A stretch of DNA of 5,294 nucleotides, taken from NCBI GenBank assembly GCA_027051265.1, contig JALTZH010000046.1:1-5294 (forward strand), in the 5' to 3' direction. Below, piece by piece: positions 429 to 5,294 of the stretch. The stretch comes from an archaeon (GTDB lineage: Archaea > Hydrothermarchaeota > Hydrothermarchaeia > JALTZZ01 > JALUTC01). Within the stretch, counting starts at the first letter, position 1; every line of letters begins with the position of its first letter. The notes beneath the pieces were generated by a model. It saw only the letters and a program-made list of their open reading frames with translations. It was not told where the DNA came from and ran no database searches. The translations under genes were made by a program, and so were the position numbers.

Positions 429-456
429 AAATATTTATAAATATGTGCAAATATTT
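429..456. promoter_or_regulatory. AT-rich palindromic leader, possible -10 region or operator
   Basis: ATATTTATAAATAT (431-444) is a perfect 14-base palindrome and contains TATAAAT (436-442), which could serve as a -10 element. AAATATTT occurs at 429-436 and again at 449-456, 20 bases apart, about two helical turns. No good -35 hexamer lies at the right distance: TTGCCT at 405-410 is too far from TATAAAT. The promoter assignment is therefore weak. Short palindromes also arise easily in AT-rich DNA. Confidence 0.3.
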
Positions 457-462
457 CTTTAT

Positions 463-467
463 GGAGG
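463..467 (+). promoter_or_regulatory. Shine-Dalgarno site of the first gene
   Basis: GGAGG lies seven bases before the ATG at 475, an ideal bacterial arrangement that fixes this start. The ATG at 461, which overlaps the site, opens only a five-codon frame and is not a credible alternative. Confidence 0.8.
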
Positions 468-474
468 ATGGGGT

Positions 475-624
475 ATGAAAAACGAAACCAAGAACATAAC
501 ACTAAAAGTTAATGCTGAACTTTACCAAAAATTCAGAAAATATTGTAAAGAAAAAGGCCTGATTATTTCAAGACAGTTTGAGATTTTTATGGAGAAAGAA
601 CTTAGAAAAAGGGGAAGAATATGA
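475..624 (+). CDS. Small ribbon-helix-helix (Arc/MetJ/CopG-type) DNA-binding protein
   Basis: This is a complete 49-residue protein. Residues 7-13 (NITLKVN) form the expected beta strand, 14-27 an amphipathic helix (ELYQKFRKYCKEKG), and 32-46 a second helix starting SRQFEIF. That matches the strand-helix-helix fold of the Arc/MetJ/CopG family, and the length fits a bare DNA-binding dimer with no extra domain. The family binds DNA by inserting paired strands into the major groove, and members often repress their own operon. The start is set by GGAGG seven bases upstream. The stop TGA overlaps the ATG of the large helicase gene (ATGA at 621-624), implying one transcript and coupled translation. 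Likely roles are an autoregulator of the operon, perhaps acting on the palindromes at 411-456, or a small DNA-binding partner of the helicase. An antitoxin-like role is possible, but no toxin-sized partner is present. The fold call is from sequence pattern only. Confidence 0.8.
   Translation: MKNETKNITLKVNAELYQKFRKYCKEKGLIISRQFEIFMEKELRKRGRI
610..617 (+). promoter_or_regulatory. Ribosome-binding site of the helicase gene
   Basis: AGGGGAAG lies inside the 3' end of the preceding gene, three bases before the ATG at 621. It is purine-rich and GA-like but less perfect and rather close to the start. The ATGA overlap suggests that ribosomes finishing the upstream gene also re-initiate here. Confidence 0.5.
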
Positions 625-3600
625 ATACAAATACTATAAGAAGTACCTATCATAAACTATTGTGGAAAGAATGGGAAAAATATAAAATACAAAAAACATT
701 GAAGAAAGTTTTTCTTACTAAACAGGATTTTCAAGATCTCAAAATTTCTAAAGAAATAGTTGATCTTCTATTACGTGAGGGTTTACTATTACAAGCGACT
801 GACGATAAATTTAGAACTCTCCTGATGGATATAGCTTTTAGAGCTTCTGATATACGAATAAAACACGGTGGCACTAAATATGTTCTTGAATCTGAACTCA
901 AATTACTCCCTAGACCTGTACTACATCATTCCTATGTTTTATTTGATAGGGAAACGAAAGAACTTGAGAACCTAAAAAATTCGTTGTTAAGAGTCGTAAG
1001 CGACGAAAATATAATCGATTCATTTTTGAGTGCTTTGATGGATGCTGGAATAAAAGGCCTTTCAAGATATCAATACTGGTCAATTATAGAATTTCTCAAT
1101 AAAAACCAAGATGCTGTTATCTCAGCACCAACAGCTTTTGGTAAAACGTACTGTTTCATCCTACCTGTTTTAATAGAGGCCATAAAGAACGTAAAAAATG
1201 ATGGGAAAACCTTAGCAGTTATATTTTATCCAAGGAAATCTTTAGGTTCGGATCAGATGGGAAAATTAATTCGACTTATTTATCATATAAACAAGAAATG
1301 TAATACGAAAATAACAATAGGCATTGATGATGGAGAAACAAAAAGAAGAAAAGATTTAGTAGACGGTGAACAATATAGAGGAATAAAATGTCCTCTTCAC
1401 CCAAATGAAACACTAATGATTAAGAATAAGAAAGTTTATTGTAAATCTTGCGGTGGTTATCTAGATTTTATTTGTTTATCTAGAGAGGACTTCGAAAAAA
1501 ATCCGCCCACTATTATAATAACAAATATATGGGCTTACCAATACAGACTTTCCAATCCAAAATATTGGACGAATGGATATCTTAGCGAAGATATAAAATT
1601 TTTTATTTTTGATGAAGTCCATGCATACAGAAGTCTGGTAGCAGGAATAATAAGGTATCTCATAAAAATTATTAAACAATTAGTTTCGCCAAATGCCAGG
1701 TTAGTTCTTTCCTCTGCCACAATTCCAAAGTTAGAAGATTTTGTTTATGAAATCACAGGATCTAAAGTTAAAGACATGTTGAATTTAATTTATGATGAGA
1801 GATATCATGGGAAAGATTCGGAAAAATTGGAATTATATTTGCTATTAGGGATTAACCCATACACCTCATGGGAAACTTATACTCATGAATTAGCAATATT
1901 CTTATCTACTGTCAATAGATTAAGAAAAAATAAAAATCTTCAGAGCCTTATCTTTGTAGATAGTATTAAAAATATTAACAGATTATACGACCAATCACGA
2001 GAAGCTATAAAACTTGGAGACCCAAAGGATCATTTTAGTTCCTTTTTATCACCAGAGGATCCTTTTTGTTTTTGGATATACAATAAGGACTTCAAATTAG
2101 ATCCAAAAGATATAGAAACTTCCACAAAAATAGAAAATCTCAGAAAAGAAATTTTAGAAAATCTTGGATATCATTATTCTCAACTTCCAGATAGGTTTGA
2201 AATAGAGGAGAGAATTAGAAATGGGACCATAGATGTAGTTTTTTCTACTTCTACATTGGAACTAGGTGTAGATTATGACAATGTATCTGTAATAGTAAAT
2301 GCAGGAATTCCTCGTACCGCTGAAAGTATAGTTCAAAGAGTTGGTAGAGCTGGTAGAAAAGAAGAAACTACATTTAATACTTCACTATCGATTATAATCG
2401 TTAGAAATAACCCACTAGAATACTTTTACATTTATAAAGGTATAGAAAATTTAGTGGATCCTAGTCTAATGTCAAAAATTCCTGTATCTTATACGAATCA
2501 ATTCGTAGTGTTTTACTCAGTTATGTTGTATATAATATCCTCATTTGCCAAAAAAGGAGAGATACTAAAAGGAGATACTAAAACACTTGAATATTTACTT
2601 GATTATTTCAACAAAAATGAAAACAATATCATCAGCAGCTTGGAAATTACAGTAGATATAACAAGACTTAAAAATGATATAGAAAAACTCATAAGAATTT
2701 TGAAGAATAAGAATATAGGCGATATTTGCAGAGAAATATACTCCTATATAAATTCACTTTGGATTTACAGAGAACTTGAAGGCTTAAAAAATGATTTAGG
2801 AGAGTTTATGAGATTATTAGAAGAAAAAATTGGAGATCTTCCTAAAAGAGAAAAACCGATTTTCGTAGAGAAATTCAGTAAACTCAAAGATGCTTTAATA
2901 AAATTAGAGAACAGCAGAAATTTAGGCGATATACGAGATATTCTCTATGACTTAATATCAATTTTAGATGAAACTAAAAATTTAATAAGAGGGAGCATCC
3001 ATCCCATGTATTCATTCAGAAGCAATTTCTTTGAGATGTCAAGAAGATCCGAGAGTTATGTTTCAGAAATCGAAAAAATCGGTTCAGTCACAAGAACATT
3101 TAGAGATGATGAATATGGGTTGTACGCTAGAGCATGCGAAATTTATAGAAATATTTCTAACAATATAATACAACTTGTAGAAAATATAATTGGTTTTAGA
3201 TTTATGGGGAATGAGTTTATAGATCAGCAGATAAACCTAAAACCTGAATTTGAATCTGGAAAAGGAAAAGAGGAATTTTTCACAACTGTAATGACACGAA
3301 TGCCGCCATTTGAGTTGATAAATATACCTTTTGAATCCAAAGAAAATAGAGAAATAACAAAAAAAGTTGGTGCTAGACATTTTTGGTTCCCTAAACCTAA
3401 AAAATCGATAGTTTTTCTAGAATGGAATACGGAAACATCCACTCTTTATCGATCCTTAATGGATAATTTTTTGATTAGTGGACATACAACAAAGTTTCGA
3501 GACATTATTATTCCTGAAACTATCAACTTTATAGATTTATTGACATATTCTTCTCCACTTGTATTAAAGATTTGGACAAAAACTGGACCAATATATATCA

Positions 3601-5294
3601 AATATGGATCCAATATTGTCAGCAACGATAAAGTAAGAGGTCGTTATCTCCTATGCAAAAATGTGAAGGAACTATACTCTCTAAATCCTACTTCTAATAG
3701 ATTTAAAATAATTCATTCTGCTACAAAAGAACATCTTGGCTTTTTAGACAAAAAGATTGTCGAACGAGGAAATCCCTGGGGAATTAATTTTAGATATGTT
3801 TCTATGTGCAAACTTGGGAAATGTTTTTCCACAGATCCATACGATTTTCAATGCCCCAAACAAATTCAGGAAGAATGTAAACAGTGTGATGGAAAAAAAT
3901 TATGGAATAGGTATCGCAAAATATTTCCAAAATTTTATGCAAGATTAGGTGTTAAAAATCTTCCAGAGGAAAGAACACCTTTAATTACTTCCCTAGAAAC
4001 ACGAACATACGAAGAAATGGAAGAAGACATCGAATTCATCTATGATACTGTATATGTTTATTTACCTATTAGATTTGGAGATTACATACTAAGAGAGATT
4101 GAAATTGAGCCTTTGGGGTATACTGCTAAAACTTCTTACATTTTACTTAAATTTAACCCGCTATTTATAGAAATTTTAATTGATAGTTTGCTAAATTCAA
4201 ACAAAGAATTACTCGAACTGTTGAAATTTAAATATTATATGTATACTCAATATAAATTAAAAGCTTCCTCCTTAGATGCATCATTAATGTGTTTAAAATA
4301 CGACTCAGAAAAAATAAATACGGATTCTGAAGAATTTAAAGAGTTCGTAACTAGATCACTAATTCACACTATAGCACATTTATTTTATACATTCTTAGCA
4401 GTCGAAAAAGTGAATATAGACCCGGACAGGATGATCTATTTTATTGAGGATTACAATATATACATATTAGAAAATTCAAAAAATGATGGAATAGGTATTG
4501 TAGAAACTATCAGAAGCGAGATTGAAAGAAAAGGAAAAGAAAGAATATTACGTGAATTTTATAAATGGTGTATTGACTTTCTAAACACACACAATGAGCA
4601 TGTAACTTACTCAGAACGAGAAATTAAAAAAGAGTCTAAAAATTTCGTTAAAACCTTAATATCAGATAACGAAATTGGTACCGACATAAAAAATATATTG
4701 GACGAACTAGATAAATTAAATAGAGAAATTTCTTCAAAAGTACCATTAAGATTTGTGGATTTAATTACTTATAGACATATAATTTCTCATCAGTTACAAA
4801 TACCTGAAGAATTGTCCGAGTATTTACTTACTATTATTAATTCACAGAATGAACCTCATCTGTGTTTTGATGGATGTAATGAGTGTTTAATATTTTCAAG
4901 TGGTTGTTCGGAGCCATTTGCACAAATCTATTTGCTTTCAAAACTCTTGGTGTCAGATTTTTTGGAAAATATTCATCAAAAGAGTATTTCTATTCTTAAA
5001 AAAGGAACTGGAAAAATAATTGAAAATCTTATGGAAATTTCCCAAAAAATAATAATAAAAACTCCTTTTATTGATGAATTTGGGATAAAATTGCTGGAAA
5101 GAATGAAACAGTCTGGGAAAGAAATAACTCTCATTACCCGGGAATCCAATATCGATTATTTAAGACATCTAAAGAAAATTGGCATCAATATAATTATATC
5201 AAGAGAAAAATTCCATGCAAAAATCTATTATTTTAATATAAATGAAGAAGAAATTTGTATTCAAGGATCAGTAAATCTAACTAAGAACAGCTTT
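621..5294 (+). CDS. Giant SF2 DExH helicase - DUF1998-like - PLD nuclease fusion (3' end beyond window)
   Basis: An uninterrupted frame of 1558 codons is still open at the right edge. Residues 1-130 are partly winged-helix-like and contain RTLLMDIAFRASDIR (65-79). The helicase core shows Q151, Walker A SAPTAFGKT (168-176, K175), a motif Ia-like stretch (202-212), DEVH (331-334), SSAT (364-367), SLIFVDS (442-448), STLELGVD (544-551) and QRVGRAGR (572-579), so ATP-driven nucleic-acid translocation is expected. C257/H260 and C274/C277 form a metal site inserted between motifs Ia and II. Residues 675-800 are helix-rich. Cysteines 1063, 1068, 1078, 1086 and 1089 cluster. LIHTIAHLF (1247-1255) and ENSKNDGIGIVE (1284-1295) look DUF1998-like, ending in C1415, C1419, C1422 and C1429. 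From about 1465 a PLD fold begins, with H1532-x-K1534 and G1549-S1550-x-N1552. This combines the domain types of DISARM DrmA, DrmB and DrmC. Antiphage function is inferred; a DNA-repair helicase of MrfA type is the main alternative. Domain calls are strong, function is not. Confidence 0.88.
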   Translation, partial: MNTNTIRSTYHKLLWKEWEKYKIQKTLKKVFLTKQDFQDLKISKEIVDLLLREGLLLQATDDKFRTLLMDIAFRASDIRIKHGGTKYVLESELKLLPRPVLHHSYVLFDRETKELENLKNSLLRVVSDENIIDSFLSALMDAGIKGLSRYQYWSIIEFLNKNQDAVISAPTAFGKTYCFILPVLIEAIKNVKNDGKTLAVIFYPRKSLGSDQMGKLIRLIYHINKKCNTKITIGIDDGETKRRKDLVDGEQYRGIKCPLHPNETLMIKNKKVYCKSCGGYLDFICLSREDFEKNPPTIIITNIWAYQYRLSNPKYWTNGYLSEDIKFFIFDEVHAYRSLVAGIIRYLIKIIKQLVSPNARLVLSSATIPKLEDFVYEITGSKVKDMLNLIYDERYHGKDSEKLELYLLLGINPYTSWETYTHELAIFLSTVNRLRKNKNLQSLIFVDSIKNINRLYDQSREAIKLGDPKDHFSSFLSPEDPFCFWIYNKDFKLDPKDIETSTKIENLRKEILENLGYHYSQLPDRFEIEERIRNGTIDVVFSTSTLELGVDYDNVSVIVNAGIPRTAESIVQRVGRAGRKEETTFNTSLSIIIVRNNPLEYFYIYKGIENLVDPSLMSKIPVSYTNQFVVFYSVMLYIISSFAKKGEILKGDTKTLEYLLDYFNKNENNIISSLEITVDITRLKNDIEKLIRILKNKNIGDICREIYSYINSLWIYRELEGLKNDLGEFMRLLEEKIGDLPKREKPIFVEKFSKLKDALIKLENSRNLGDIRDILYDLISILDETKNLIRGSIHPMYSFRSNFFEMSRRSESYVSEIEKIGSVTRTFRDDEYGLYARACEIYRNISNNIIQLVENIIGFRFMGNEFIDQQINLKPEFESGKGKEEFFTTVMTRMPPFELINIPFESKENREITKKVGARHFWFPKPKKSIVFLEWNTETSTLYRSLMDNFLISGHTTKFRDIIIPETINFIDLLTYSSPLVLKIWTKTGPIYIKYGSNIVSNDKVRGRYLLCKNVKELYSLNPTSNRFKIIHSATKEHLGFLDKKIVERGNPWGINFRYVSMCKLGKCFSTDPYDFQCPKQIQEECKQCDGKKLWNRYRKIFPKFYARLGVKNLPEERTPLITSLETRTYEEMEEDIEFIYDTVYVYLPIRFGDYILREIEIEPLGYTAKTSYILLKFNPLFIEILIDSLLNSNKELLELLKFKYYMYTQYKLKASSLDASLMCLKYDSEKINTDSEEFKEFVTRSLIHTIAHLFYTFLAVEKVNIDPDRMIYFIEDYNIYILENSKNDGIGIVETIRSEIERKGKERILREFYKWCIDFLNTHNEHVTYSEREIKKESKNFVKTLISDNEIGTDIKNILDELDKLNREISSKVPLRFVDLITYRHIISHQLQIPEELSEYLLTIINSQNEPHLCFDGCNECLIFSSGCSEPFAQIYLLSKLLVSDFLENIHQKSISILKKGTGKIIENLMEISQKIIIKTPFIDEFGIKLLERMKQSGKEITLITRESNIDYLRHLKKIGINIIISREKFHAKIYYFNINEEEICIQGSVNLTKNSF

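Follow-up and report, generated by a model that had tools for sequence, protein, structure and literature searches.

A helicase-DUF1998-PLD fusion as the probable effector core of a DISARM-like restriction system in archaea

According to Bell et al. 2025 (PMC12458937), the YprA helicase family consists of a repair branch and defence branches. The same work places the OB-CON-DUF1998 canopy of DISARM on a separate protein, describes a fused canopy in Dpd, with the four DUF1998 cysteines lost in canonical Dpd, and reports a PLD domain fused to the YprA helicase in Druantia III (PMC12458937). In DISARM, DrmAB is autoinhibited until DNA bearing a 5′ overhang activates it (Bravo et al. 2022, PMC9142583). 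DrmC lies outside the core complex, and because it neither co-purifies with DrmAB nor seems to be essential, the identity of the DNA cutter in DISARM is an open question (PMC9142583). Here we describe an archaeal gene whose product carries helicase, DUF1998 and PLD domains in one chain. Judged from sequence, this gene is likely to encode the effector core of a DISARM-like archaeal antiviral restriction system that forms a separate clade of the YprA family.

The window, that is, the whole stretch of DNA analyzed, comprises contig C46 in full (5294 bp); the archaeal assembly to which it belongs totals 1.46 Mb and has 257 contigs. The fusion gene (621..>5294, plus strand) encodes 1558 residues in a frame open to the contig end; its stop codon is absent from the window because the window is the whole contig and the gene is cut at its 3′ side. 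Since residue 1558 aligns to residue 1585 of 1600 and to residue 1667 of 1682–1685 in intact relatives, about 15 C-terminal residues are missing. The contig ends within the PLD domain, so that any partner genes would lie beyond it, and no continuation was found elsewhere in the genome of the window. Upstream lies the gene of a 49-aa ribbon-helix-helix protein (475..624, plus strand), which matches the Arc-like repressor family phrog_582 in PHROGs (6.9e-5) and shows only sub-threshold matches in Pfam and NCBIfam. Its stop overlaps the start of the fusion gene (ATGA), in agreement with an earlier sequence-only reading of this locus, which had placed such a gene beside the fusion. The ribbon-helix-helix protein would probably be an autoregulator of the operon. 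A putative archaeal promoter (TTTATAAATA, at about 433–442) and a putative ribosome binding site (GGAGG, at about 463–467), both on the plus strand within 429..468, were read from the sequence. The GC content of positions 1–470 is 43%, reaching 48% over the initial 250 bases, versus 30% in the gene, and this region contains neither an open reading frame of 60 aa nor an Rfam match. In a related genome, G406, a 159-aa protein with a ribbon-helix-helix-looking N-terminus and no family match (L089, 13844–14323) occupies the corresponding position upstream of the helicase.

The sequence-only reading had proposed that an SF2 helicase, a DUF1998-like region and a PLD domain share a single frame, and the domain and motif searches bear this out. 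The N-terminal region (residues 1–130, 621..1010, plus strand, as are all features below) is conserved within the clade in the alignment and is possibly a winged helix as in DpdJ. RecA1 (1011..1820; Pfam DEAD, 1.5e-17) contains motif I (PTAFGKT, residues 170–176, 1128–1148), motif II (DEVH, residues 331–334, 1611–1622) and motif III (SAT, residues 365–367, 1713–1721). It also contains a Cys/His insert (C257, H260, C274 and C277; 1389..1451), probably a zinc-binding module, which is shared with a Nitrososphaeria homolog (L009) and is absent from the family homologs inspected. RecA2 (1821..2540; Pfam Helicase_C, 6.7e-13) carries motif VI (QRVGRAGR, residues 572–579, 2334–2357). The predicted structure of residues 1–690, made together with the L009 homolog, has a mean pLDDT of 45, and that of residues 1229–1558 alone a mean of 38, both too low for use.

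A canopy region follows at 3204..4340, defined in an alignment of the window protein with homologs from the genomes G026 and G128 (36% and 24% identical); the OB/CON name is taken from its position. Cysteines C1063, C1078 and C1086 of the canopy are invariant in all three sequences. The DUF1998/MZB signature (4365..4907) is likewise supported by invariant residues in this alignment, namely H1249 and H1253 (HxxxH), ENS at 1284–1286, and the four cysteines C1415, C1419, C1422 and C1429. The region has no Pfam match, and profile comparison by hhalign aligns it with DrmB (E = 5e-5, 67% probability) and with a DpdJ-like helicase (E = 1e-9, 96%), while the match to YprA proteins alone is weak (E = 0.01). 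The conserved motifs and the remote profile matches make the DUF1998 assignment a good, albeit remote, one. The PLD nuclease domain (5016..5294; PLDc_2, 2.5e-6) scores 27.8 bits against a Pfam cut-off of 27 and contains HAK (residues 1532–1534, 5214–5222) and GSVN (residues 1549–1552, 5265–5276). The textbook PLD motif is HxKxxxxD. The window has HxK...GSxN without the Asp, as does DpdK, and hhalign aligns the domain with DpdK (4.5e-5) and with Dpd-linked PLD proteins (4.6e-6). Thus the C-terminal part, whose failure to match either family had been named as fatal to the sequence-only reading, matches both PLD and DUF1998 profiles. Chance can be excluded as the source of these similarities, because conservation spans long stretches between archaea at 30–50% identity.

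Relatives of this protein are sporadically distributed. The gene occurs in 1 of the 23 genomes of the window's class and in 6 of the 94 genomes of the archaeal family of G026, and a search of 394 archaeal genomes with the C-terminal half found only the window's genome, G026 and G128, plus short PLD-only matches. Neither the viral contigs nor, with the C-terminal half as query, the plasmids searched contained a relative of the full protein, and the phages searched gave only weak helicase-core matches. The genes surrounding the G026 locus (DNA polymerase D large subunit, PPAT, triosephosphate isomerase and Kae1) suggest that it belongs to Thermococcus. The scan of genome contigs returned a single homolog, on the Nitrososphaeria metagenome contig L009 (52% identical), which retains the helicase and the canopy and inside which that contig ends. 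The genes flanking it on the opposite side were read as HsdR, HsdS and HsdM, the components of a type I restriction-modification (R-M) system. A DUF2400 protein (1e-31; L009, 5101–6414) with an extra, weakly NucS-like C-terminal part is also encoded upstream of this homolog.

The six family genomes share a common cassette in which the effector takes two forms. It is fused in G026, G421 and G449 (1682, 1685 and 1600 aa, respectively), with 36% identity between the G449 protein and the window over 1610 positions. In G128, G403 and G406 it is split into two overlapping genes, for a helicase of 739–765 aa and a DUF1998-PLD protein of 926–970 aa; the two G128 proteins match the window by BLAST at 6e-67 and 2e-27, respectively. 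Helicase, DUF1998 and PLD therefore stand in one chain in the window and in three complete relatives, and three others encode them in two overlapping genes. The domain order is identical in both forms, and DUF1998 and PLD always remain together. Two split-type proteins (L045, 8269–11178; L087, 10322–13231) keep HxK in the PLD domain and have GSxN changed to KPTxN. The PLD domains of these two may be inactive, in which case cleavage would not be universal in the clade.

Directly downstream of the effector is a gene of 404–458 aa in the fused type and 414–419 aa in the split type. The members scanned have no above-cut-off Pfam match and no PADLOC match, and PHROGs gives one weak match, to a family of unknown function. 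Among the 94 genomes, each type of this gene co-occurs exactly with its respective helicase (3/3 and 3/3). The chance of this is 1 in 134,044 per type if the genomes are treated as independent; because two genome pairs carry near-identical cassettes, about two independent events per type is the better count. No similarity between the two types is detectable by BLAST or hhalign, and we treat them as one component on the basis of position, size and co-occurrence. No match to this gene was found in the 257 contigs of the window's own genome.

An amino-methyltransferase gene adjoins the cassette in all six genomes. It is DUF1156/HmaB-like (619–623 aa) in the split type, PF01555 in G449, and type II-like in G026 and G421, where the listed reading frame starts late and the frame extends upstream through the SAM motif DPFGGSGT. 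These enzymes fall into two or three families with little resemblance to one another. On a 3-kb contig of G002, a genome of the window's order, two genes overlap: one for a methyltransferase related to the split-type enzyme (E from 1e-27 to 7e-33) and one of the fused-type ~400-aa family, which matches its G449 counterpart at E = 1e-33. Therefore, a link between the methyltransferase and the ~400-aa protein is seen across archaeal lineages. The GC contents of the six cassettes and their flanks are 0.454/0.555, 0.450/0.562, 0.324/0.423, 0.484/0.557, 0.487/0.547 and 0.375/0.495, so that every cassette is 6–12 points below its flanks, and a DpnII endonuclease with a Dam-type methylase adjoins the G449 cassette. 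Low GC content together with R-M neighbors is typical of mobile defence cassettes.

We then placed the helicase by phylogeny, with DISARM, Dpd, BRIGADE, Druantia and YprA helicases included. In a tree of 31 helicase cores, the window, L009, G026 and G128 form one clade (100/100) separate from DpdJ, DrmA, BRIGADE/Druantia and YprA, and in a tree of 35 sequences the window, L009 and all six family genomes group at 99.4/100. Sampling of DrmA in these trees is thin (n = 2), and the DrmA branch is weakened by the very divergent DrmA_Halisc (QASSRVGR as motif VI). The AU test rejects placement of this clade with canonical DpdJ (p = 6e-6) or with the DpdJ-like helicase from the window's genome and genus (p = 0.002), but not a sister position to all Dpd (p = 0.73) or placement with BRIGADE/Druantia (p = 0.30), DrmA (p = 0.23) or YprA (p = 0.12). 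The window shows the SF2 RecA1-RecA2 core followed by the four-Cys DUF1998/MZB that defines the YprA family, and YprA is its best solved-structure match. The helicase thus appears as a distinct clade within the YprA/MrfA family, for which the AU test leaves several deep positions unrejected. Three identifications were rejected: DrmA, by a weak PADLOC score and by the maximum-likelihood trees (although the AU test did not reject it); canonical DpdJ, by the AU test and despite the best profile score; and MrfA, by the clade of its own and by contig C244 of the same genome, which encodes a YprA/MrfA-like protein separately. The sequence-only reading had looked to grouping with DrmA or to a separate clade enriched in defence islands. 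DrmA grouping was not obtained, and what was found is a separate clade with patchy distribution and foreign composition, located in part beside R-M genes.

Several other loci, in this genome and elsewhere, carry related components. In G001, of the window's genus, a DpdJ-like helicase of 1311 aa is followed by a DpdA-like TGT, Cas7a and Cas5a (L031, 165–8696), which we read as a 7-deazaguanine-type pair lying within a type I-A CRISPR locus or next to it; contig C137 of the window's genome encodes a helicase related to the one in L031. Contig C127 of the same genome encodes, in a row, an OGG-like DNA glycosylase, QueC (PADLOC, 4e-38) and a TGT-like protein (1e-47) (L104, 246–2618), possibly a DNA base-modification locus. 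A Deinococcus Dpd locus (L080, 5356–11467) has a short DpdJ-like helicase (1027 aa), then a protein of 737 aa and one with PLD, which is another split arrangement. A DISARM-like locus in G002 (L033, 5540–14587) contains DrmA, DrmB, DrmC and a C5 methyltransferase.

The protein could be a Dpd-type effector, a fusion of DpdJ and DpdK that acts on DNA without 7-deazaguanine marks; the genes for the modification would then be located at another site of the genome. DpdJ is the best PADLOC match of the window, split-type and G449 helicases, helicase and canopy lie in one chain in both cases, the single-motif PLD resembles DpdK, the AU test does not reject a sister position to the whole Dpd clade, and the window's genome has both the QueC and TGT-like genes and the DpdJ-like helicase mentioned above. 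Against this, both more specific Dpd groupings are rejected, the NCBIfam DpdJ profile scores 72 bits where 800 are required, and the four DUF1998 cysteines reported as lost in canonical Dpd (PMC12458937) are kept. Furthermore, the six family cassettes showed no neighboring queuosine or TGT gene; a methyltransferase stands there in place of 7-deazaguanine genes. We consider this explanation unlikely.

Still less probable is a MrfA/YprA-type repair helicase with an added nuclease domain. The shared family, the helicase-DUF1998 architecture, the best solved-structure match and the unrejected placement beside YprA favor it, but MrfA/YprA has neither PLD nor methyltransferase, and the window's genome has its separate YprA-like copy. 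Repair members of this type are marked by a housekeeping setting, by an MrfB exonuclease as partner or by the lack of a fused PLD; the window carries such a fusion. The sequence-only reading had named a housekeeping repair clade with conserved context as contrary evidence; the cassettes are instead patchy, of foreign composition and adjoined by methyltransferase and R-M genes. Its remark that MrfA lacks PLD stands, whereas the fusion of YprA helicase and PLD has a precedent in Druantia III (PMC12458937). Like the window, DruE of Druantia III carries PLD at the C-terminus, but it has two PLD domains and long inserts both between and inside the RecA domains, and it occupies a separate branch of the tree. 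Druantia III is also characterized by DruH as a partner. BRIGADE and ARMADA are also defence-branch YprA helicases, BRIGADE often with PLD nearby, and differ from the window in a long RecA1-RecA2 insertion and in their partner genes. Motifs III and VI are ~200 aa apart in the window, compared with ~800 aa in Druantia III and BRIGADE.

Equally improbable is a true DISARM whose drmA, drmB and drmC were fused and then diverged: the domain types and the methyltransferase of the homologous loci agree, DrmB ranks high among the profile matches of the DUF1998 region and DrmA grouping is not rejected, but the PADLOC DrmA score of the window (1.1e-21) is far below that of the true DISARM DrmA of G002 (4.6e-122), the trees place the helicase away from DrmA, the profile match of the fused PLD is to DpdK and not to DrmC, and no DrmD or DrmE homolog was recognized in the cassettes.

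The likeness to DISARM is nevertheless considerable under the preferred reading of a DISARM-like system in its own clade. As in DISARM, a YprA-family helicase, a four-Cys DUF1998, a PLD nuclease and a DNA methyltransferase belong to one locus in the six family genomes, and the probable zinc module in RecA1 of the window and L009 is a further resemblance. Unlike DISARM with its three genes, the effector domains form one chain, or a helicase and a DUF1998-PLD protein, so that DUF1998 is never a separate gene, and there is an extra ~400-aa protein without known family. The proposal of a compact DISARM-like core therefore holds in part. One chain contains the DrmA, DrmB and DrmC domain types and a methyltransferase adjoins the complete homologous loci, making the phrase a fair description of how the protein probably works; DISARM membership is not supported, the helicase lying on what seems a separate branch outside that of DrmA.

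From the domain architecture and gene linkage, which are read directly from the sequences, we infer the function and every step of the following mechanism. The methyltransferase would mark host DNA as self. The helicase would load on unmarked or single-stranded invading DNA and then translocate, the DUF1998 canopy would link translocation with activation, as it does in DrmAB and MrfA, and the tethered PLD domain would then cut the DNA. Target recognition or loading is a possible role for the ~400-aa protein. The DISARM and YprA precedents in PMC12458937 and PMC9142583 make this the most likely mechanism. More tentatively, the cassettes might represent an undescribed archaeal class of YprA-helicase defence, combining one effector with amino-methyltransferases that can be exchanged and with an indispensable ~400-aa protein, of no known family, that decides target recognition, although we would not put this at even odds. 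The classes in the figure 1 legend of Bell et al. 2025, which are not described individually in its main text, probably contain the clade of the window (PMC12458937).

As a natural helicase-DUF1998-PLD fusion, this protein makes the contribution of PLD to defence directly testable through HxK in cis. If the carriers are Thermococcus, which their gene content suggests, Thermococcus kodakarensis would be a close relative that is amenable to genetics.
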